DNA of 58,054 bases from an uncultured bacterium (lineage in GTDB: Bacteria > Cyanobacteriota > Vampirovibrionia > Gastranaerophilales > Gastranaerophilaceae). Position 1 is the stretch's first letter; every line of letters begins with the position of its first letter. Under the pieces are notes generated by a model. It saw only the letters and a program-made list of their open reading frames with translations, did not search any database and was not told the DNA's origin. The DNA lies in the NCBI GenBank assembly GCA_949298805.1, contig CASFXY010000010.1:1-58054 (forward strand). Direction: 5' to 3'. Shown piece by piece: positions 3,213-43,985 of this stretch. A program made the position numbers and the translations under genes.

Positions 3213-4235
3213 ATGTCTTCAGGAATGTCCAGTGATCAAATTATAAAAAATGAAATTAAAGATAAAATCAAAAGATTTGAGGGTATCACTATAAGAATAT
3301 TTCCGGATAGCAGTAATGAAGATCAAAGACTGGTTGAAGAAGGCGGACTTACTTTTTCATATAATGGTGTTAATTATGGCTCTTGTGATGCCTGTTGGCT
3401 TGAGAAAAAGGAAGTTAACGGTAATATTGTTGAAATACCGCTAATAGGTCTTGAAGGAACCGATGCATTAAATAGAGGCAGTACAGGAAATGCGCAATAT
3501 CAAAGATTTCACCATGCATTAGGTGCAGTAAAAAATGGTTATATTGGAATATATTATTTAAGAAAAGGTAATAGCATTATTCAGCCTGATTTATATGAAA
3601 TGGCCTATAATGCAACTATACGTGAATCAAAAGATGGTGCATATTTAATTACCCAAGATTTAAATATTGTCAATGATATTCTGGAACTTATTGTAAAATA
3701 TGGTCGTACTTCAGAGCAGGTTAATAAATATCTAAGAAATTATACAGAAGAAATGCATAATTTTTGGTATGAAAATAAGTTTAAACAATATAAATATAAT
3801 TGGGATATATTTGCAGATAAGCGTTCGACGATATTAAAAGATAATTATATTATTAAATATACGGGAAGAATGAAGCGCAATTACACAGAAGGTTCTCAAA
3901 GAGCAGGACACATTGCTGTAGGGGAAATGTACTTATCTAAATATTTATTTTATGGCAAGAAAGTTTATTACTTGTGTCCCAGAATGAATTCAGACGAAGT
4001 CGCTTATCTTGATAAACATAAAACCAATGATAAAGAATGGCATTTATTAAGGCATGAGGATAATGTCTTTTATGTAACTCGTGATGATTTAGAAAACGTC
4101 CCTCCGGAAGTTATAGAAAAATTAGTTTCAATTTCAGATTTACCAATGAAAGGAAAAGTTTCGACAATTTTCAAAGAATGCATGAATATCATAAAAAGCG
4201 GTTTAATTAATGGGAGTATTAAATTAAAAATATAA
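3213..4235 (+). CDS. Putative second restriction endonuclease subunit
   Basis: A 340-residue protein, not recognised with certainty. Residues 56-110 have the look of a nuclease core: Asp59 in GSCDACWL, a strand ending LIGLEGTD (Glu81; Thr83 sits where a Lys is usual), then a basic, polar helix (GNAQYQRFHHALGAVKNG). This could be a divergent PD-(D/E)XK site. AAAGGAG lies about 12 bases before the ATG. It starts two bases after the upstream nuclease gene and precedes two methyltransferase genes. Two nuclease genes with two methylases recall heterodimeric enzymes cutting asymmetric sites. It could instead be a DNA-recognition or accessory subunit. Confidence 0.5.
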   Translation: MSSGMSSDQIIKNEIKDKIKRFEGITIRIFPDSSNEDQRLVEEGGLTFSYNGVNYGSCDACWLEKKEVNGNIVEIPLIGLEGTDALNRGSTGNAQYQRFHHALGAVKNGYIGIYYLRKGNSIIQPDLYEMAYNATIRESKDGAYLITQDLNIVNDILELIVKYGRTSEQVNKYLRNYTEEMHNFWYENKFKQYKYNWDIFADKRSTILKDNYIIKYTGRMKRNYTEGSQRAGHIAVGEMYLSKYLFYGKKVYYLCPRMNSDEVAYLDKHKTNDKEWHLLRHEDNVFYVTRDDLENVPPEVIEKLVSISDLPMKGKVSTIFKECMNIIKSGLINGSIKLKI

Positions 4236-4354
4236 TGCGATTACAGGCATAAATCATCAAATATAAACCATGGCAGCAAAAGTTAAATGAAGATATTTCA
4301 ATAACTTGCTATGTTTCTAGTGTAATGCTAGACTACAAATACAAAGGAGAATTG

Positions 4355-5389
4355 ATGTCAGAGCAGCAATATTTTTATTATAAAGATACTTCCAGAAAAA
4401 TTATGCCGCATCCGGATAAAAATAAACAAAAGAAGGCAAAAGAAATTTTAAACAACATTTATATGACAAGTATTGATAAAATTCCTAAGCTATATAAAGA
4501 AAATTGGCAAGAGGTAAAATTGTATCAGCCTGCCGGACTTGTAGAAAAAGCTCAAGCAATTATCCTTAACGCAAATGACGGGGCTTACGATTTAAGAAAT
4601 AAAATAAATGATTTGACAGGAAAAGAATGGACAAAGTTTACTTGCAGTTGGTTTATTTTTAATGCATTGCATAGTGATTTACAAGAAGAACGCGCGGTTA
4701 CAAAAGATACCCAAACTCATCCGGCTACATTTTCTCCTACTATGATTTCAGATTTTGTAAAATATTTTACAAAAGAGGGAGATACCGTTTTAGACCCGTT
4801 TGCCGGCATCGGAAGTACTTTGGTTGCTTGCAAACGTACCAAAAGAATTGGGTATGGCATTGAATTAAACAAAAAATACTTTGATATTATTATTAAAAGA
4901 ACACCTGAATTTAAAAATAATATATTTAATGATGATTGTAGAAATATTGATAAAATAAAACTTCCGGTTATTAATTATTCAATATCATCTCCTCCATATT
5001 GGAATGTTTTAAATAGAAGTACTGACGGTTTTAAAAAAGAACGAGAAGAAAAAGGCTTGGATGTTTATTATTCTAATGCAGAATCCGATTTAGGAAATAT
5101 TGATAATTATGAAGTATTCCTTAAAGAAGTCTGTTCAGTTTATTTCAAACTTTATGATATTCTTGCGGATGGATCTTACATTACCATTATCGTAAAAAAT
5201 GTTAAGAAGGGCGGAAAAATGTACCCATTGGCTTGGGATATGGCAAAAATTCTCGGAGAAAAATATGTATTAAAGGATGAAAAAATATGGATTCAAGATA
5301 AAATTGGTTTATCACCATACGGATATCCGAATTCATGGGCAAGCAATATCTTGCACCATTATTGCCTTATCTTAAGGAAAGAACAATGA
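4355..5389 (+). CDS. DNA methyltransferase, SPPYW type (N4-cytosine or N6-adenine)
   Basis: A 344-residue amino-methyltransferase that protects host DNA using S-adenosylmethionine. Motif I is DPFAGIGST (147-155), an acidic IELNKKYFD follows (motif II region), and motif IV is SSPPYW (211-216). The SPPY form is commoner in N4-cytosine enzymes, but the modified base is not certain. The start at 4355 is chosen because AAAGGAGA (4343-4350) precedes it; the ATG at 4325 has no such site. The frame is open back to about 4253 without a start. The end overlaps the next methylase gene by ATGA, so the two are translationally coupled. Confidence 0.85.
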   Translation: MSEQQYFYYKDTSRKIMPHPDKNKQKKAKEILNNIYMTSIDKIPKLYKENWQEVKLYQPAGLVEKAQAIILNANDGAYDLRNKINDLTGKEWTKFTCSWFIFNALHSDLQEERAVTKDTQTHPATFSPTMISDFVKYFTKEGDTVLDPFAGIGSTLVACKRTKRIGYGIELNKKYFDIIIKRTPEFKNNIFNDDCRNIDKIKLPVINYSISSPPYWNVLNRSTDGFKKEREEKGLDVYYSNAESDLGNIDNYEVFLKEVCSVYFKLYDILADGSYITIIVKNVKKGGKMYPLAWDMAKILGEKYVLKDEKIWIQDKIGLSPYGYPNSWASNILHHYCLILRKEQ

Positions 5390-6990
5390 AGGAAATACTG
5401 GATAAAATAATAAATGGTTTATATTCTGATGAAAATTATCAGAAAGAGTACTCACAAATATACAAAATCCATAAATATTGGGCAAGAAAACCATGGTATA
5501 TTGTAGAAAAATATATCAACGAATATTCAAATATAGACGATACTGTAATGGATCCTTTTTGTGGTAGCGGTTGTACCGGATTAGAAGCAGTAATCAACAA
5601 TAGAAACTTTATCGGGCGCGACCTTAATCCGGCTGCAATACAAATTTCAAAGGGCACATTATTAAATAATATTGATTTTGAAAATCTTGCAAAAGATTTA
5701 GAAAAAATAACCTGCACTTGCAAAGAAAAAATTATGAATTTGTATCTTACCAAATATCTTTGTCCGGAGTGTGGTCATTATTTATACTATAAATACATTA
5801 ATATAGGCCCCAAATTTAAAAATCAATACTCAGGAATGTTATATTGTGATAATTGTAAATCAAAAGGTATAAAGCATAAATTGACAAAGGAGGAAGCACA
5901 AGATTTACAAAATTATAACGCACTAAATATAGAAAAATGGGTTCCAAACAAAAGTTTTCCAAAAAAGTTTTATAAAGATAGATTTAGTTATAAAGGCATA
6001 TCTTTAATAACCGATATGTACACCAAGAGAAATTTATATGCATTATCCGTATTATATGATGAAATACAAAAATTAAAGGGTAAAAATAAAGAATTATTTT
6101 TACTTGCCTTTACAAATACTGTCTTGCATGTAAGCAAACTAAAAAGTGAAAATGTAAGACCCTTGGGCGTAAATAACTATTGGGTGCCTGATGATTATAT
6201 TGAAGAAAATGTATGGTTCAGATTTGAAGATAGAATTAAAAATATAATAAAAGCAAAAAAACAACAATTAAAGAGGGAACTGGAAAAAAAAGCACATGAC
6301 ATAAATTATGGCTCTTGGTCTATTAATAACGTGTCAGCTTTAGATAATATTGAAGAAAACAGCATTGATTATTTCTTTACAGACCCTCCTTATGGTGATG
6401 CAATTCAATATTCAGAGCTTTCATATATTTGGAATGCATGGATAAATAAATCCTACGATACAAAGGAAGAAATTATAATAAATCCAGTGCAAAATAAAGG
6501 TATACAAGAGTTTAATGAATTGTTGTCTAAATCTCTTGAAAATATATATAATGCACTAAAACCAAATAAATATTTTACTTTATGTTTCCAAAATAAAAAT
6601 TCGGAAATATGGAAAGCTGTTATATTAAAATGCAGAGATTTAGGATTTAAACTAATAGATACAAGCATTTATAACACCTATGGAAGCCCTTTTAATAAAA
6701 GTTGGGCAAATTTTTCTCCAAAATCAGATATATATGTAACATTTCAGAAATCAGATATTGGGAAAAATAATTTTTACAGTAAAAAAGAAACCGTTGAAGA
6801 TATTATATATAAAATTCGATTATACATGAAAGAGAAAAATATAAGTGAAAATAATAATCGTCTTTACGACTTAACAATGTCATATTTAATATGGACTCTA
6901 TATTACAATAAACAAGATATTACGGTAAATAAATTTAATATAAAAAGCTTTTCTGCATTAGTGCAGAATGACATTTCTCAAAAACACTAA
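5386..6990 (+). CDS. DNA methyltransferase with zinc-ribbon insertion, DPPY type
   Basis: A 534-residue methyltransferase. HKYWARKPW (29-37) is typical of large DPPY DNA methylases related to DUF1156 proteins. Motif I is DPFCGSGCTG (56-65) and motif IV is TDPPYGD (332-338). In between lies a long insertion with CPEC (126-129) and CDNC (154-157), a likely zinc ribbon, then a basic segment for target recognition. TDPPY suggests N6-adenine methylation. The start at 5386 overlaps the upstream stop as ATGA and follows AAGGAAAG; the ATG at 5335 has no ribosome site. With the SPPYW enzyme it could methylate the two strands of an asymmetric site. Confidence 0.85.
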   Translation: MKEILDKIINGLYSDENYQKEYSQIYKIHKYWARKPWYIVEKYINEYSNIDDTVMDPFCGSGCTGLEAVINNRNFIGRDLNPAAIQISKGTLLNNIDFENLAKDLEKITCTCKEKIMNLYLTKYLCPECGHYLYYKYINIGPKFKNQYSGMLYCDNCKSKGIKHKLTKEEAQDLQNYNALNIEKWVPNKSFPKKFYKDRFSYKGISLITDMYTKRNLYALSVLYDEIQKLKGKNKELFLLAFTNTVLHVSKLKSENVRPLGVNNYWVPDDYIEENVWFRFEDRIKNIIKAKKQQLKRELEKKAHDINYGSWSINNVSALDNIEENSIDYFFTDPPYGDAIQYSELSYIWNAWINKSYDTKEEIIINPVQNKGIQEFNELLSKSLENIYNALKPNKYFTLCFQNKNSEIWKAVILKCRDLGFKLIDTSIYNTYGSPFNKSWANFSPKSDIYVTFQKSDIGKNNFYSKKETVEDIIYKIRLYMKEKNISENNNRLYDLTMSYLIWTLYYNKQDITVNKFNIKSFSALVQNDISQKH

Positions 6991-7201: not shown

Positions 7202-9280
7202 CTACCTTGCCAATTTATCAATTAAATTATAATACCAAGACATAAAACCTTCTTTATGGTCTTTTTGGTATTTTTCAAGTTCTTCCTTGTTCATTTTCTT
7301 AGTCGGCATTGCAGTCATCTGGCGCGAAACAATATCTGTCAAAAGCGTACTTAGCGCAACAATAAGCCCTGCGCCAATCATTGAACCTTGATATTGGCGT
7401 TTAAATAAACTGTTTAATGCGCCTGATATAGCTACCTGCGAAGACATTCTTGCAAATTTATTTAAACCTCTTTTTCTTGCGGCAATTTGTGCCTCTTGTT
7501 TGTTATCACCATTCTTGATAGCAGCATTATATTCATCATTCATGTTAAACCACATGCCTGATAGAGTACCTGTGGTTTGCGCGATTATGGCAATTTTTGA
7601 ATTATCGACTTTTGAAACTGTTTTATTATTTAAAGAGGCAAGTCGCATTTTGTTCACATATTTACCAAATTCTTCATTTAGTTTTTCCGGATTAGCGCCA
7701 TATTTGCTTTTATATTGTTTATATCTTAAATATAAATTTTTAATACCATAAGGATCGCTGAGCAGTTCTTTTAATTCAGAACTTTTGATAGGCTTGGTAA
7801 TTTTAATATCTTCAACAAAATTAACTGACTTCATCTTTTTAATACGTTTTATTGCTTCCTGCGGGCTTAACAAATCCGTTTTTTCACCATTTTTTATTAA
7901 ACCTGTCGCACTTGCCAGATTTTTAGCTATTTTATAAGGATATGAAAAAATTTCCTTAAAAATTCTAAAAGGTGCCAAAGGAAGTTTTTTTAGTTCCGAA
8001 ACAGGGACTTCAATTAAACCGAATATTTTGGTTGTTTTTGGAGTTTTACCCAAAAATAAATTATCTTGCAAAGCAAATTTATTCCTTATTTTTTGTGACA
8101 ATTTATTCTCGCCGCAATTAAATAGTATCTTGCTGAGTTCTTCGAGTTCTTCACTTGTTGCAATAACCTTTTGCAACGACTGATTATCAATTTTATTTAT
8201 ATAACCAGTAAACAAATTACTTATTTTCCTGCCTATGTCTGTGTGCAGTTTTAACGCCCTTAAAGTAAAACCTGCCACAATTGAGCCGGCACAAAACAAT
8301 AGAATATTTTTAAGCGAAAGAATTGGCTTTTTGGCTTCTTTATTCATCTCGCTTTGCGTTTTGTATTCCTCATTGTTTTTTACCGATTTTTGGAACTCTT
8401 TTATTGAATACTCAGGTGCATCCATTCTGGTTAATCGCATACCTGAGCTTTTTCTTGAAATTATTCTTGAAACCAAACTTATGGCAGTTCCAAAAAGCGC
8501 AGAAGCCCAGAGATTTGAATTTACAAAACCTGAAAAACAGGAGAGCAGACCAAATTGCATTAAGCCTTCCAGAATATTTTCTTTTACTTCCTGTCCCTGT
8601 TTTAAAAGTTGAGATTTTTTTGCCTCCTCATCAGTTTTGCCTTTTAATTTTGCACTGTTGAAAAAATCATTGCCTAAAAATGCTGCTGCAGTAAAACCTG
8701 ATACAAGTCTTGTAATAAAACGTTCTTTCTTGGTATCATAAGTTGCTTTATCAAAAGCCATGGATTTGTTTAGCAAATCATCAAACTTATCGCCAATATC
8801 ATCGCAAACAGATTTGCAAGCACCATCACAAACACCTTTTTGGGATTTTATTTTTGAAAGCACATTTTCCGGAACTTCGCTAATAAATCTTGCCCCATCT
8901 TCATACAAGCCCTGAAGCGCCTTAAGTTGATTTTCTTTTAAAGCGTGATCTCTATATTTTTGAAGTATCTCAGAATTATAAAATCTTGAATTTGAAAACC
9001 TTGAAGCTAAATCTTCCATTAAATCAAAAGGCAATTCAAATAAATCTCTTATGCCCTCGATTGCATTCCTGAAAAATCCTGTTTTTTTAGGCAGCTCAAG
9101 CCCTTCTACCATTTCAACGGCATCCGGCGCTTTTGCTTTAACCTCTTTGGTTAAATTATCCGCAAGTGCATTAACAGAACAGTTAACAAATTTTTTTATT
9201 TTTTTAAGATGCTCAATATCGGGGGTTTTTCCCCCGAAATTTACATTTGAAAAATTTTGTTGTAATGATGATGTTTTCAT
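7202..9280 (-). CDS. Large membrane protein with N-terminal F-x-G motif, unknown function
   Basis: A 692-residue protein of unknown function. It opens with polar residues and then VNFGG (13-17), an N-terminal tag shared with three other proteins in this window. There is no signal peptide. Hydrophobic stretches occur near FGLLSCFSGFVNSNLWASAL, NILLFCAGSIVAGFTLRAL and MIGAGLIVALSTLLTDIV, with long charged, Lys-rich regions between, so it is probably anchored in or associated with a membrane. It stands alone on the minus strand. TATAAG 8 bases before the ATG suggests a very short leader. A structural or host-interaction role would be pure guesswork. Confidence 0.6.
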   Translation of the reverse strand: MKTSSLQQNFSNVNFGGKTPDIEHLKKIKKFVNCSVNALADNLTKEVKAKAPDAVEMVEGLELPKKTGFFRNAIEGIRDLFELPFDLMEDLASRFSNSRFYNSEILQKYRDHALKENQLKALQGLYEDGARFISEVPENVLSKIKSQKGVCDGACKSVCDDIGDKFDDLLNKSMAFDKATYDTKKERFITRLVSGFTAAAFLGNDFFNSAKLKGKTDEEAKKSQLLKQGQEVKENILEGLMQFGLLSCFSGFVNSNLWASALFGTAISLVSRIISRKSSGMRLTRMDAPEYSIKEFQKSVKNNEEYKTQSEMNKEAKKPILSLKNILLFCAGSIVAGFTLRALKLHTDIGRKISNLFTGYINKIDNQSLQKVIATSEELEELSKILFNCGENKLSQKIRNKFALQDNLFLGKTPKTTKIFGLIEVPVSELKKLPLAPFRIFKEIFSYPYKIAKNLASATGLIKNGEKTDLLSPQEAIKRIKKMKSVNFVEDIKITKPIKSSELKELLSDPYGIKNLYLRYKQYKSKYGANPEKLNEEFGKYVNKMRLASLNNKTVSKVDNSKIAIIAQTTGTLSGMWFNMNDEYNAAIKNGDNKQEAQIAARKRGLNKFARMSSQVAISGALNSLFKRQYQGSMIGAGLIVALSTLLTDIVSRQMTAMPTKKMNKEELEKYQKDHKEGFMSWYYNLIDKLAR

Positions 9281-9387
9281 TGCTATGTCTTATACAAATT
9301 AATTTGCCAAAAACATAAACGCAATGAACATTTAAAATTGCTTAAAAATTTTTAAAACTTAACATAAGGTTACAAAATATTCAAAAC

Positions 9388-9882
9388 TTAGAAAGCAAGG
9401 TCATTCATACATCTGTTCCAGTTTTCAAGTTCTTCACGTTCTCTTTCTTCTTGACGCAATTGAAAACGTAATTCCTCCAATTCAGGAGAAGACACTACTT
9501 CTTCAATTTGTTGAGCTCTGGCAAGTACTTCTCCTAAAGAAGGTTTGCTTGTATCTTCATAATCCATAAGCGTATAAGCGGTGTCTTCAAAGTTACGCAA
9601 TGTTTCTACAGGGTTTTCAAAATTTAATGTTTCATCATTTTTTAGCTTGTGAAGCAAGCGCGGCACTGTTCTTTCAAGTAAAAATTTTTCATCAAGTCTT
9701 ACTTTTAACTTTTGACCTTCCGATGAAAATATAAAAAACTTTGACGAATTCAAAATCGGAAAAGTAAATTCCGAAGGTGCATTTGCTTGTATTATTTCTT
9801 CGGCACCTTTATCTTCAATAATACCGAAACTAATTTGTTTTTGCGGGTTAAAACCGTAATTTGTTAATGGGTTTACTCTCAT
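9388..9882 (-). CDS. Small acidic protein with N-terminal F-x-G motif, unknown function
   Basis: A 164-residue hypothetical protein. MRVNPLTNYGFNPQKQISFG shows the same polar start ending in a S/N-F-G motif (ISFG, 17-20) as its neighbour at 7202-9280. The rest is mostly charged helix, with a Glu-rich C-terminal coil (RQEEREREELENWN) and no signal peptide or membrane segment. It lies 107 bases upstream of the larger tagged gene on the same strand. TAGGT before the ATG is a plausible ribosome site. No domain is recognised. Confidence 0.55.
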   Translation of the reverse strand: MRVNPLTNYGFNPQKQISFGIIEDKGAEEIIQANAPSEFTFPILNSSKFFIFSSEGQKLKVRLDEKFLLERTVPRLLHKLKNDETLNFENPVETLRNFEDTAYTLMDYEDTSKPSLGEVLARAQQIEEVVSSPELEELRFQLRQEEREREELENWNRCMNDLAF

Positions 9883-10030
9883 TTTTACCTAACTTTCTTG
9901 TGATGTTATATTACCTTGGGGAAAATTATTTTATCTCTATTGCTCTCAAGTTTCAAGTAATCTTATATAATATATTTACAATATTAAACATTTCTAAAAA
10001 TATAAGCAAAATAATTGATACACCTTATTT

Positions 10031-10897
10031 TTATCGTAGAAAATTCGTAACAAACCTCTTAATTTTACAAAAAATACAAGAGTCTTTTTTGCGAATTTCT
10101 TTAATTTCCGAAATTGAATATGTTTCAGGCTGAATTATTCTTTGATACTTAACCTTTGGAATGCCGAAAAGCATTACGTATACAGGTTTATAACCCGACG
10201 GAATTTCAAGCATTTCACAAACTTCAGGAAAAAATTTTAAACAAGCCTGAGCAAATCCGCACCAACAGGTACCAAGGCCCAAATGTTGCGCATAAAGTTC
10301 AAAATAACTAAGCGCAATAACAGGGTCGACATTTGCGCATGGTGCACTAATAGGGGAAGAAGCCACAATCATGTGAGGCGCACCTCTAAAAATTACATCT
10401 TCGCCATTTAAAAAAGCGTTTTTATATCTTGAAAACTTATTCATAACAGGGGAGAGCAACTTGTATGACATTGTTTTTAAAACCATTTCATTAACTTTAT
10501 CTCTTATTATATCCATGGCCGCTTTTTTCTCGACAACCGAGAAATGAAGTGAATGATTGTTGCATCCTGTAGGCACATAATTTAGCATTTCTTTTAATTT
10601 TTTTATTGTTTCGCAAGAAACTTCTTCATTTTCATATTGTCTTACGCTTCTTCTTGACTGTATCAGCCCTAAAATATCATCATAGTTTGTCTGTTTAGAA
10701 TTTTGAGGATTCTTATCAGCAAAAGAAAGTGCACCTGTCGGACAGATTGCAAGACAATGCTGACAAGAAATACATCTTTTCTCGTCACTCATTTTGGGAA
10801 AATTTTCATCATCAAAACTTATACATCCCGATACACAATCACTAATACAAAGAGAACAATGTACACATTTACTTTTATCAACAATAATAGATTTCAT
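10031..10897 (-). CDS. Ferredoxin-nitroreductase fusion protein
   Basis: A 288-residue protein. Two 4Fe-4S ferredoxin motifs come first (Cys11/14/17/21 and Cys42/45/48/52), then from about residue 75 an FMN-binding nitroreductase domain starting GLIQSRRSVRQY. Such fusions take electrons from ferredoxin to reduce nitro or quinone compounds in the cytoplasm of anaerobes; the natural substrate is unknown. A few extra Cys residues occur near the C-terminus (CIFCK). It follows the split chromate transporter genes on the same strand with a 54-base gap and may be co-transcribed, so a role in oxidant or metal stress is possible. Confidence 0.85.
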   Translation of the reverse strand: MKSIIVDKSKCVHCSLCISDCVSGCISFDDENFPKMSDEKRCISCQHCLAICPTGALSFADKNPQNSKQTNYDDILGLIQSRRSVRQYENEEVSCETIKKLKEMLNYVPTGCNNHSLHFSVVEKKAAMDIIRDKVNEMVLKTMSYKLLSPVMNKFSRYKNAFLNGEDVIFRGAPHMIVASSPISAPCANVDPVIALSYFELYAQHLGLGTCWCGFAQACLKFFPEVCEMLEIPSGYKPVYVMLFGIPKVKYQRIIQPETYSISEIKEIRKKDSCIFCKIKRFVTNFLR

Positions 10898-10951
10898 AAT
10901 TTCCCATACACCCTATTACACAAGTATATTTTTTTGCAAAAAAAATGTCAA

Positions 10952-11539
10952 TTACGCATGCGGAATAATAAATAAAATATGATTAAAATGCAACAAAAGC
11001 CCTGCAATTGCGCCCAGTGCAAGAAAAATCAACGGGTCTTTTTTGATTTTCAAACTAATTATAAACAAAACAAAAAGCAGCAAAAGTGCCTTTATATCAA
11101 TGTTTTTAAAATAAAAATCCGACAGAGAATGGAATTTTACAACAGATTCAAAAAACAATCTAAATGCAACCGCAGCAAGCATTGCAGCAGTTGCAGGACG
11201 CAGAGCGTACATAACAGAAGTCAATATAGGACTATCTTTGAATTTTTTAAGCATTTTTGAAATAATTACAACAAAGATGAATGATGGCAACATAATTGAC
11301 ATTGTTGCACACAGAGAACCAAGAAAACCTGCAGTCTTAAAGCCTGCAAAAGTCGCCACATTCAAGCCCACAGGTCCGGGGGTAATACTAGAAATTGCAA
11401 GCATTTGAGACAACTCATTAAGTGAAAACCAATTGTAAATCTCGCTCATGTGATACAAAAAGGGCAATGTAGCATATCCCCCACCAAAAGAAAACAGTCC
11501 GATTTTTGCAAATTCAAAACACAAAAGAAGAAAAATCAT
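10952..11539 (-). CDS. chrA: Chromate transporter, C-terminal-type half
   Basis: A 195-residue hydrophobic protein with about six membrane helices. GLFSFGGGYATLPF near the N-terminus and ITPGPVGLN are CHR-family signatures. CHR proteins export chromate or related oxyanions. Full-length ChrA has two such domains; here each is a separate gene, and the two overlap by 4 bases (ATGA), which implies a heterodimer made in equal amounts. The short-chain CHR pair is a known form. The true substrate may not be chromate. Confidence 0.85.
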   Translation of the reverse strand: MIFLLLCFEFAKIGLFSFGGGYATLPFLYHMSEIYNWFSLNELSQMLAISSITPGPVGLNVATFAGFKTAGFLGSLCATMSIMLPSFIFVVIISKMLKKFKDSPILTSVMYALRPATAAMLAAVAFRLFFESVVKFHSLSDFYFKNIDIKALLLLFVLFIISLKIKKDPLIFLALGAIAGLLLHFNHILFIIPHA

Positions 11540-12081
11540 TTTGCGCCTCCTTTTGGCATTTTACTCCGCACAATCCCAAACATAATGGCAAGAACAATTA
11601 TTAATGCCGGAGAAATTCCAAAAATGCACATCAAAAATGCGCTTACAAAAAGCAAAAAAGTTATTTTATCAACAATAGAAACCGACCAGACTTCTTTTAC
11701 GGTAAGAATAATAAGAATAATTATTGCTACATTAACACCCCAAAATATATCATTCATAATAATCGATTGAAGTAAAATTCCAATAAAAGAAGCAAGCGTA
11801 AGTATTGCAAGAAAAGGTGCAAATATAAGACCCAAAAGCGCACAAAATGCGCCTGTTTTGCCCCGCAACTTATAACCTGCCAACATAATTGTATTTGGTG
11901 CTATAATTCCGGGTATACATTGCCCTATTGCATAAAAGTCAATAATTTCTTCTCTTGTAAGCCAATTTCTTTTTTTACTGAATTCATTAACTAAAAGCGG
12001 AACTATTACATAACCTCCGCCCAATAGTAGTGCGCCAATTTTTACACATATCAAAAAAAGTTCGCCAAGTTTTATTTTCAT
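11536..12081 (-). CDS. chrA: Chromate transporter, N-terminal-type half
   Basis: A 181-residue membrane protein, partner of the downstream gene. LLLGGGYVIVPLLVNEF and AIGQCIPGIIAPN match the conserved CHR glycine and proline motifs, and several hydrophobic helices follow. It starts 24 bases after the stop of the F-x-G-tagged gene at 12106-13050 and overlaps the second half by 4 bases. The whole minus-strand run may therefore be read from the promoter near 13080. Function as an oxyanion exporter is by family only. Confidence 0.85.
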   Translation of the reverse strand: MKIKLGELFLICVKIGALLLGGGYVIVPLLVNEFSKKRNWLTREEIIDFYAIGQCIPGIIAPNTIMLAGYKLRGKTGAFCALLGLIFAPFLAILTLASFIGILLQSIIMNDIFWGVNVAIIILIILTVKEVWSVSIVDKITFLLFVSAFLMCIFGISPALIIVLAIMFGIVRSKMPKGGAK

Positions 12082-12105
12082 TACTAAATTTTAACGCAAA
12101 AAATA

Positions 12106-13050
12106 TTAAAAAAGGAAATCCATAAAAGCATCATGCAAAAATTCCATATCAGGCATATTTTCGCGAATTGCTTTTAAAGTACCGTTTTTGTCGACTTTAT
12201 AAAATTCTTCGGCAACTAATTTTGACCCGTTTTTGGTTTGAACAGGGTTATAATTTAAACCTATCGAAGCCAAGCCATTGTTTAAAAAATAAAACCCTTT
12301 TGCAATGTTTGTAGTTTTCCCGTTAGTTTTAATATACTTAAGGAAGGATGATTTTACACCTTTAAAGTCTGCTGCTTTATTAATAAAAATTTTGATTTTA
12401 TTTTTTTCTACATTCAGAAAAATATTTTTAAAAACCATAAAAGTATTATCCGAGTCTGCAATTCCATTGTTTATAAATAAAAAATTAAAAGGCAGTTTTC
12501 TTATTCCTGTTGCAGCGGCATTAACCAAACCGTCTTTAACCTTAATTACATTAAATCCGCCTAATTTTCCCTTATATTCTTTAACGTCAAAATTTTTACA
12601 ATCTAAAAATTTGATTTTTCTTGCAAGTTTGCCATTCGAAGTATACTCCTCCATTACAGAAGGAAGATGGCAACCGTCTTTTACAATAAATCTTCTTACT
12701 AAAATAGAGTTTTCATAAACATCTTGGAAAGAATTTTTTGCACCCTGATTAATAAATCCGGAAATATCATCAGCTTTAATTTGAAAATCATGCAGCAATT
12801 TTTGAGCAGAATTTTGCATGTTATTTAATTTTTTCTTTACAATGCCTGATTCAAGCAATAATCTTTGGCGCTTGGTTGCAAAAAACAAAAAAATAAAACC
12901 TAAAAAACCAAGACCCGCTAAACATCTTTTAAAAATATTTTCTTCGGGGTAATAATTAGCATTACTTACTTTTTGTTTGACATTTTTCTTTTTAATATTT
13001 TCAACACCTTTGAAATTTATATATGACTGTTTAATTGCACCAATTTTCAT
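12106..13050 (-). CDS. F-x-G-tagged protein with one membrane helix, unknown function
   Basis: A 314-residue hypothetical protein. The start at 13050 is chosen because GGGGA lies about 7 bases upstream; a longer frame to 13113 has a poor start. It begins MKIGAIKQSYINFKG, the same N-terminal tag seen in three other proteins here, then a Lys/Asn-rich stretch and one hydrophobic segment (GLGFLGFIFLFFA). The rest is soluble, beta-rich sequence with repeated K-V-D-K and G-K-L patterns. It is divergent from umuDC across a shared palindromic operator, so it may be damage-inducible. Confidence 0.6.
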   Translation of the reverse strand: MKIGAIKQSYINFKGVENIKKKNVKQKVSNANYYPEENIFKRCLAGLGFLGFIFLFFATKRQRLLLESGIVKKKLNNMQNSAQKLLHDFQIKADDISGFINQGAKNSFQDVYENSILVRRFIVKDGCHLPSVMEEYTSNGKLARKIKFLDCKNFDVKEYKGKLGGFNVIKVKDGLVNAAATGIRKLPFNFLFINNGIADSDNTFMVFKNIFLNVEKNKIKIFINKAADFKGVKSSFLKYIKTNGKTTNIAKGFYFLNNGLASIGLNYNPVQTKNGSKLVAEEFYKVDKNGTLKAIRENMPDMEFLHDAFMDFLF

Positions 13051-43076: not shown

Positions 43077-43985
43077 TTACCAAGGCATTCCAATCATTTG
43101 ATCAATTGCTTTTTCAAAGTCAGTTCTGTCATCATCGTAAGGATTTCCTTCTTTGAAAATTGGAACACGTTCTCTTGGCAACGTATCCTCATATCTTTGC
43201 CTTATACTTTTTGGCTCGGAGAAAAATCTGTTTTTATTTTGAAGAAGATAGTCAATCATGCATGCCGAACTTGGTTGACTTGCAAGCTCTAAAGCATATT
43301 TACTCATCTCGCCATGTCTAATCTTTGCTTTATTAATTCTTGTAATACGTGGTTTAATCGTCCTTGTGGTCTTGTCGTCATATATTTTCAGGGCAAATTC
43401 TTTAACATCTTCCATAGTTTCAAGAGGCTTGTCGTACTTTTGTTGAGAATACACACTCATAGCACGACCTATATCATCTTTGATAAAGTCATACATATAA
43501 TTCATTCTGCCTCTTTCATCAAGTCTTAAAATTTCGTTTGTCCTGTATTTTTCTACATCTGCCCCTGCCGGTCCTTCACTTTCTGCCCAAAGTGTCTGCA
43601 AAATGTCTACAAATTCTTCTTCATTCGGGTATTTTACAACTCCACCTTTTTGAGTAGCATACACCGATGATGCCGCGCAGCTAAGGAGAAAGAATTTATC
43701 CATACAATCATCAAAATCTTCATGAGAAGGCATTCTATGTTTATTCGCACTGGTACATGGGTTAAGATAAAGCGTTAAACAAGATATTATACCGTCTACG
43801 CCATTTGCTATAACGTCGCGTCTTAGTTCATAGTTAGGATTTGAACCAAATGCCGTAACTGATTTTACAAAAACATCGGACGAACTATTAAATTTCGGAA
43901 CACTTTTTTGTTTTATTGGTGAAAAATTAGGATTAACAAAAGCATTTTTAACGGGTATGCCTGCAGCATTAAAATTAATTCTCAT
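43077..43985 (-). CDS. Hypothetical protein with divergent F-x-G-type N-terminus
   Basis: A 302-residue protein of unknown function. The start MRINFNAAGIPVKNAFVNPN resembles that of the tagged protein at 9388-9882, and VTAFGS (43-48) is a late, looser version of the motif. The rest is charged and helical with no signal peptide or membrane segment. AAAGGATG precedes the ATG. It is isolated between ftsY and recN. Confidence 0.5.
   Translation of the reverse strand: MRINFNAAGIPVKNAFVNPNFSPIKQKSVPKFNSSSDVFVKSVTAFGSNPNYELRRDVIANGVDGIISCLTLYLNPCTSANKHRMPSHEDFDDCMDKFFLLSCAASSVYATQKGGVVKYPNEEEFVDILQTLWAESEGPAGADVEKYRTNEILRLDERGRMNYMYDFIKDDIGRAMSVYSQQKYDKPLETMEDVKEFALKIYDDKTTRTIKPRITRINKAKIRHGEMSKYALELASQPSSACMIDYLLQNKNRFFSEPKSIRQRYEDTLPRERVPIFKEGNPYDDDRTDFEKAIDQMIGMPW

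Follow-up and report, generated by a model that had tools for sequence, protein, structure and literature searches.

Unrelated proteins of an uncultured bacterium of the order Gastranaerophilales share an N-terminal tag made of two parts, hydrophobic residues within positions 2–8 (M-[KRQS]-[IV]-x-x-[IV]) and, behind a polar linker, a Phe core ([IV]-[NST]-F-[GKTS]-[GSA]). The tag was noticed in a 58,054-nucleotide stretch of DNA, here called the window, which is contig 10 (CASFXY010000010.1) of a 1.68-Mb genome (GCA_949298805.1). It is real and is enriched in the order, more sparsely beyond this genome, and not in six genomes of other orders. As judged from alignments, the tag acts like a targeting signal that can be added or removed; one GlgX-like enzyme occurs with and without it, and in one GH13 protein it stands where most close homologues have a Sec-type start. 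Our tentative reading, held at less than even confidence, is that the tag may be a portable export signal read by a second type III secretion system (T3SS2). G-numbers denote genomes and L-numbers loci in this analysis. Open reading frames (ORFs) were predicted by the longest-ORF rule, and some starts and short ORFs are therefore wrong.

Tagged proteins in the window

The preliminary description of this DNA had reported three minus-strand proteins with ATG starts at 9280, 9882 and 13050 that share a Phe-centered core, and the genes, starts and cores are all as it gave them. A fourth case, absent from that description, starts at 43985.

7202–9280, minus strand: 692-residue tagged protein, function unassigned, with membrane-like segments near residues 320 and 633
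9230–9244, minus strand: Phe core VNFGG, residues 13–17 of the 692-residue protein (computed from start 9280)
9388–9882, minus strand: 164-residue tagged protein, whose gene adjoins that of the 692-residue protein in several genomes of the same genus as well
9820–9834, minus strand: Phe core ISFGI, residues 17–21 of the 164-residue protein (computed from start 9882)
12106–13050, minus strand: 314-residue tagged protein; its membrane segment starts at residue 39, behind the tag
13006–13020, minus strand: Phe core INFKG, residues 11–15 of the 314-residue protein (computed from start 13050)
43077–43985, minus strand: 302-residue protein with the tag and a second Phe motif
43860–43877, minus strand: second Phe motif DVFVKS, residues 37–42 of the 302-residue protein (computed from start 43985)
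43842–43859, minus strand: Phe core VTAFGS, residues 43–48 of the 302-residue protein (computed from start 43985)

The N-terminal sequences of the 692-, 164- and 314-residue proteins are MKTSSLQQNFSNVNFGG, MRVNPLTNYGFNPQKQISFGI and MKIGAIKQSYINFKG, respectively, and the hydrophobic element falls within residues 2–6 of the second (RVNPL) and the third (KIGAI). Pairwise BLASTP of these three and the fourth case gave a best E value of 0.12; whole-length homology was not found, in line with the claim that the proteins are unrelated. Pfam returned no family match over its cut-off for any of the three, and NCBIfam returned no match for the 692- and 164-residue proteins, the two that were searched. 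The polar character ascribed to the leaders was borne out for the tag as a whole (Asn, Gln, Ser and Thr, 33% versus 23%; Asp and Glu, 6% versus 13%). Hydropathy revealed no hydrophobic stretch at the N-terminus of any of the three, as expected from the stated lack of a signal peptide, and the membrane segment of the 314-residue protein comes only after the tag. For tagged proteins in general that statement needs a qualification, as some carry a membrane or signal-like segment behind the tag; at least five in this genome, including the 314-residue protein, have a membrane segment 15–26 residues behind the core Phe.

The tag is enriched at N-termini within the order

Our sample of the window genome comprised 858 kb, about half of the genome, with 781 ORFs of at least 80 residues. 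An unsupervised motif search of the 781 N-termini returned only hydrophobic words and not the tag, and we therefore used a supervised matrix of seven columns, trained on tags of this genome that include the three proteins first noted, so that its own-genome count is not independent. At a score of at least 11 the matrix matched 23 of 747 N-termini (3.1%), versus 8 of 2,814 internal windows; when N-termini of the same genome were shuffled, 0.44% reached this score. Inspection of the best-scoring N-termini put the tagged proteins in the sampled half at about two dozen, mostly unrelated. The strict pattern put forward in the preliminary description matched only 1 further N-terminus of 423, while a looser core recurs. 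A wide regular expression combined with a polar-leader filter proved too loose for counting (280 of 1,913) and was discarded.

Four held-out genomes of the order (G034, G020, G026 and G028, from four families, one of them that of the window genome, with about 10 kb of G020 counted twice) gave 9 matches among 708 N-termini and 4 among 2,479 internal windows (p = 0.0004). Most of this signal comes from G034 (5 of 216). G020 and G028 show no enrichment when taken alone (1 versus 1.3 expected and 2 versus 1.1 expected, respectively), and at least two of the nine matches look by eye like ordinary enzyme starts (L075 3078 and L215 3319). The T3SS2 neighborhoods of six genomes, a fifth held-out set, yielded 1 of 103 versus 2 of 342 and were left out of the pooled count. 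In the six genomes of other orders no enrichment was seen (2 of 554 versus 4 of 2,198, p = 0.35), and isolated candidates outside the order are found in G040 (L100 12270) and in Caenarcanales (L145 12640).

Clean short tags occur in other genomes of the order (MIKGITPAPNFTGN, MIKRVTPLPSFTGK and MVKNVLSPNFAGK in G026, MVAPISFSGK in G028 and MTVSPVNFAGN in G034), the regular expressions for short forms having been picked after examples had been seen. G026 also encodes, in one cluster, small tagged proteins whose leaders are very short (L216 11149, 11639 and 14828, the first two related at 33%), perhaps a minimal form of the tag. The 692-residue family is present in 35 of the 39 order genomes searched, the window genome included. 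A draw from the class found it in 12 of 60 genomes, all 12 belonging to the family of the window genome (itself included), and in 0 of 48 outside the order. Many of these homologues keep the core (LSFKGFS, ISFGGSF, LAFKGL) behind leaders of very different length.

The tag has two parts

The Phe core of the preliminary description stands, but its picture of a single-part tag does not, as the signal is bipartite. For the two-part test the matrix was started at residue 8, so that the protein start itself was ignored. Within the window genome, [IVL] at position 3 and at position 5 or 6 was found in 12 of 29 core-positive and 45 of 516 core-negative N-termini (p = 7e-6), the training tags having been picked by eye. 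A start of the form [KRQNTSE] at position 2 and [IV] at position 3 was found in 4 of 12 core-positive versus 58 of 651 core-negative N-termini of other order genomes (p = 0.02). The codons of the core differ at silent positions and selection therefore acts on the protein.

Close to the core, several tagged proteins carry a second Phe motif, D-[TSIV]-F-x-[KR]-[ST]. Searched as a DNA pattern, D-T-F-E-K-[ST] was present in 15 of 28 order genomes versus 13 of 69 others, the reversed control giving 9 of 28 and 14 of 69. It was only weakly commoner than the reversed control in a draw of relatives (14 versus 8 of 39 genomes). The relatives contain 19 occurrences of the pattern: 12 map to residues 1–65 of a predicted ORF, 1 maps to residue 85 and 6 were unplaced, and short loci favor N-terminal placing.

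A GlgX-like enzyme occurs with and without the tag

With an alpha-amylase profile, 12 of 13 genomes of the genus of the window genome yielded both a short frame (710–726 codons) and a long frame (734–786 codons), and G011 yielded the long frame only. Residue 54 of the tagged long protein L293 aligns to residue 2 of the untagged short protein L302 (46% over 719 residues). In the long form the GlgX profile starts at residue 59 and the CBM48 profile at residue 63; in the short form the corresponding positions are 8 and 11. The NCBIfam GlgX matches are below cut-off (330 and 317 of 640.9 bits).

We inspected eight long copies (from the window genome, G002, G004, G006, G007, G008, G010 and G012) and two short copies (from the window genome and G007). 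For L305 and L306, in which an upstream in-frame Met exists, the MSLAIN start was taken. All eight long copies combine M-x-[LI]-x-I-x-[PS]-[IVTL] with [IV]-[SN]-F-[TG]-[SA], have the Phe at residues 34–36 and carry about 55 extra residues, and neither short copy has the extension. The linker measures 23–25 residues in all eight and is 36% identical, compared with 62% and 76% for the two parts of the tag and 70% for the first 150 enzyme residues, the core value of 76% being partly a product of its location by pattern. By hydropathy, the tagged copies have no Sec-type hydrophobic stretch at the start or behind the tag. In 7 of the 13 genomes, a GH13 gene whose product has a Sec-type start is found no more than about 6 kb from the long copy.

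A possible exchange of tag and Sec-type start in GH13 proteins

The tagged GH13 protein L297 (G030) starts with MSINMNIRKQYYNTAFTGLKKREVKFAGKK. Among the proteins compared, 13 of its 14 close homologues (E < 1e-100) have a Sec-type start. In L273 (G026) the tag is followed by a hydrophobic segment at about residues 70–90 and an amylase domain from residue 128; its homologue L117 (36% over 617 residues) has a Sec-type start and no tag, and comes from family f8, in which FlhA exceeded its cut-off in 0 of 10 genomes. In L301, a GlgB/TreZ-like GH13 protein whose gene adjoins the T3SS2 transglycosylase gene, the core (Phe 49) precedes CBM48 (residue 61). A GH13 gene with a Sec-type start (L128 1515–3557, G021) is located directly upstream of the T3SS2 operon, in which FliE begins at 3690. 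Thus, alpha-glucan enzymes of both signal types adjoin this operon.

Matches over the Pfam cut-off were obtained for 4 of 30 tagged proteins, namely an NTP transferase that is GlgC/RmlA-like, a transglycosylase domain (L068 13568), a TPR protein (L067 13258) and FliK of G034 (L079 1349). A tag reserved for alpha-glucan enzymes is ruled out by these four matches. The tagged 1,365-residue protein L014 12274 is GH13-like. The GlgC/RmlA-like nucleotidyltransferase encoded at L069 3589–5493 has about 270 extra N-terminal residues with three copies of the Phe core. Another tagged protein, of 921 residues (L003 708–3473), shows by eye a lipoprotein-like stretch (LSAC) behind the tag, which the hydropathy rule did not call, and a very long Asp-Thr dipeptide repeat.

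The preliminary description had suggested a sorting, secretion or processing signal specific to this lineage. A lineage-specific N-terminal signal on unrelated proteins is what we find, and the isozyme pairs and the probable replacement of a signal peptide favor sorting or secretion.

Genes for a second, filament-less type III secretion apparatus

The FlhA and FlhB families are present in all 39 order genomes searched, the window genome included. The latter has three FlhA members: a flagellar-type protein on contig 20 beside FlhB, a second full-length protein on contig 13 in an operon with a transglycosylase, FliE, FliF and FliH, and a protein consisting of the C-terminal domain only on contig 18. 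Of the 39 genomes, 36 have the second full-length FlhA; it is missing in G018, G027 and G037, which are 75–82% complete. The second full-length FlhA of the window genome is 90% identical to that of Candidatus Galligastranaerophilus intestinigallinarum and 73–88% identical to those of five Candidatus Gastranaerophilales records, which marks the window genome as one of the gut Gastranaerophilales; its NCBIfam match is below cut-off (690 of 772.1 bits). Of the T3SS2 parts, FliE, FliF, FliH, FlhA, a second FlhB and the transglycosylase were recognized by profile, and FliI, FliPQR, rod-like FlgB/C/F/G, a FliG-like and a short FliK-like protein by homology or by eye.

A flagellin match is missing in 7 of the 39 genomes (G015, G016, G017, G020, G021, G023 and G036). 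All seven are without a full-length flagellar-type FlhA and keep the second full-length FlhA and an FlhB. Judged by its gene content, T3SS2 is a flagellum-derived, filament-less system whose export genes are kept without flagellin.

The FlhA-C-only protein, of about 480–500 residues (L018 14680–16125 on contig 18 of the window genome, L126 10724 and L079 3538), aligns to FlhA/SctV solely over the C-terminal cytosolic domain (profile positions about 321–656) and is present in 37 of the 39 order genomes, not in G016 and G017. A record titled uncultured Acinetobacter sp. RUG672 (L136, ONVC01000010.1) encodes a second FlhA 84% identical to that of the window genome in a similar operon and is probably a mislabelled Gastranaerophilales genome.

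Other features of the window

By eye, positions 361–1738 hold a small ORF of helix-turn-helix-like character and, after it, an ORF resembling the start of a HipA-type kinase, a possible toxin-antitoxin pair. A pair of overlapping ORFs at 4325–6990 shows motifs like those of DNA methyltransferases (SPPYW and DPPYG), and two adjacent ORFs resembling a split chromate-transporter pair lie at 10952–12081, again as recognized by eye.

Discussion

The nearest parallel to the best-conserved form of the tag is found in the flagellum. According to Bryant et al., early flagellar substrates need a hydrophobic element and a Phe-initial gate recognition motif that docks at FlhB; in Salmonella FlgD the hydrophobic signal lies at residues 2–5 and the Phe motif at residues 36–40, and export is slight when the elements are 19 residues apart and optimal near 24 (PMC8983047). 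The GlgX-like tags, with elements at residues 2–8 and Phe at 34–36 and a linker of 23–25 residues, share this layout. The claim that no known export signal matches the tag was therefore too strong. Unlike in FlgD, the spacing in other tags is shorter or longer, the consensus is [IV]-[NST]-F-[GKTS]-[GSA], and the tag is carried by enzymes and membrane proteins instead of subunits of the rod or hook.

A second parallel comes from Chlamydia, in which GlgP, GlgX, MalQ, GlgA and GlgB are reported to carry T3SS signals and GlgC not to do so, and a phosphoglucomutase has gained such a signal (PMC4829429; PMC9251005). There as here, housekeeping enzymes of alpha-glucan metabolism that are without a Sec signal gain an N-terminal signal, and GlgX and GlgB kinds are among them in both. 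The Gastranaerophilales proteins differ in their visible shared tag and in the extra 50–60 residues on the duplicate.

Portable sorting tags of other kinds are familiar. YSIRK, KxYKxGKxW and ESPR are N-terminal sorting motifs that belong to Sec signal peptides. They resemble the present tag as lineage-wide N-terminal motifs on unrelated proteins, but most tagged proteins have no Sec signal peptide near the tag. PEP-CTERM is a C-terminal sorting tag accompanied by a membrane helix and served by a dedicated protease. Like the present tag it is short, portable and placed on unrelated proteins of one lineage, but it sits at the opposite end of the protein, and its membrane helix and dedicated protease are not seen here. 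Among the matches listed for Gastranaerophilales, Melainabacteria and Vampirovibrionia, no title or abstract start concerns such a tag or a second T3SS. One paper discusses the flagellar genes of flagellin-less gut Melainabacteria as genome reduction (PMC3787301), and two others mention flagella, pili and, in one of them, a type IV system (PMC5877343; PMC4451040).

We favor export by T3SS2 because the GlgX-like tags share the FlgD layout and because glycogen enzymes of Chlamydia carry T3SS signals. According to this model, the two parts of the tag, separated by the polar linker, would be read in the cytosol by the flagellum-derived apparatus. If they work as in FlgD, docking at the export gate would fall to the Phe core and opening of the gate to the hydrophobic element. 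The cell would then export its tagged proteins, among them alpha-glucan enzymes that arose as duplicates of housekeeping forms. A still wider proposal, which we regard as rather doubtful, is that the whole order keeps a filament-less T3SS as a general exporter, with a consensus tag on duplicated enzymes of the glycogen debranching, branching and amylase kinds that can be traded against Sec signals, amounting to a 'metabolic secretome'. On that proposal, flagellar genes that have been taken for relics in gut Melainabacteria would be a working secretion system.

Several observations weigh against export by T3SS2. The Phe residues of the three window proteins first noted, at positions 15, 19 and 13, are closer to the start than FlgD tolerates, and across other tags the Phe ranges from about position 13 to 55. 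The fourteenth close homologue of L297, namely L295 (same genus as G030), lacks a Sec-type start as well as a clear tag. The F-x-x-x-hydrophobic pattern is irregular, the fourth position being E, K, I or Y in the GlgX-like set, in which the Phe itself is present by construction of the search. Other order genomes show no enrichment of [IVL] at position 3 and at 5 or 6 (1 of 12 versus 61 of 651). The membrane or signal-like segments behind some tags (the protein at 12106–13050, L014 1150 and L273) fit an intracellular or another kind of signal better, as does the tagging of a GlgC-like nucleotidyltransferase, whereas Chlamydia GlgC is reportedly not secreted. In the window genome tagged genes adjoin T3SS genes, a set that includes flagellar homologues, in 5 of 26 cases versus 35 of 754 (p = 0.008), and of these five two look false and three are training tags; in other genomes there is no such proximity (1 of 51 versus 23 of 831). 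The core is not consistent among the probable substrates of T3SS2, and the non-substrates FlhA and FliI score equally. Finally, two FlhA are also found in other orders, in which the tag is not enriched.

A rather unlikely alternative, to which some of these observations lend weight, is intracellular sorting, with a cytosolic receptor gathering tagged soluble and membrane proteins at a glycogen body, a membrane domain or a similar site. Alpha-glucan metabolism accounts for several of the tagged enzymes, a membrane segment closely follows the tag in several proteins, and the two GlgX-like forms would represent a free and a bound isozyme. The tagged nucleotidyltransferase requires cytosolic substrates, a point that also counts against export, and L295 shows that the GH13 family can do without any export signal. 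Sorting within the cell accords poorly with the Sec-type start in 13 of the 14 close homologues of the tagged GH13 copy and with the 26 of 30 scanned tagged proteins that have no Pfam match over cut-off or visible link to glucans (the GH13-like L014 12274 being one of the 26), and no receptor candidate was found.

The tag could instead be the export signal of another machine, whether unknown or specific to the order, or an extension that steers Sec clients; this, too, we consider somewhat improbable. The general view is that T3SS signals have no consensus that can be read, so a recognizable one would be unusual. The hydrophobic segment of L273 and the lipoprotein-like stretch seen by eye in L003 708 both lie behind the tag, the proximity to T3SS genes is weak and the three proteins first noted are short-spaced. 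On the other side, no Sec-type segment follows the tag in the GlgX-like copies, most listed tagged proteins have none near it, and no candidate machine was identified.

A role of the tag in cytosolic interaction or regulation, by way of docking, turnover or chaperone binding and independent of location, is improbable. Phe-centered motifs, sometimes several in one protein as in the three copies of L069 3589, do resemble docking peptides, and the second motif near the tag is also docking-like, but a peptide of this kind leaves the isozyme pairs and the position of the tag at the Sec-type start of relatives unexplained. A coincidence of composition, in which low-GC, Asn-rich N-termini yield such words, is very improbable: although shuffled N-termini of the window genome do reach a score of 11, some listed matches are plainly false, two of the four held-out genomes are not enriched alone and the unsupervised search missed the tag, it is contradicted for the whole set by the own-genome and held-out counts and by the retention of both parts across a diverged linker of fixed length with silently changed codons, and single weak matches may be due to chance.

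Should export by T3SS2 prove correct, it would explain why flagellar genes are retained in gut Melainabacteria without flagellin. It would provide a T3SS signal open to reading and counting, to alignment between orthologues and to comparison of isozymes with and without it, so that the nature of such a signal would be directly testable, and it would list the proteins that these common uncultured gut bacteria may release into their surroundings. Even with another route, a portable, order-wide tag that stands where relatives have a Sec-type start is apparently new.

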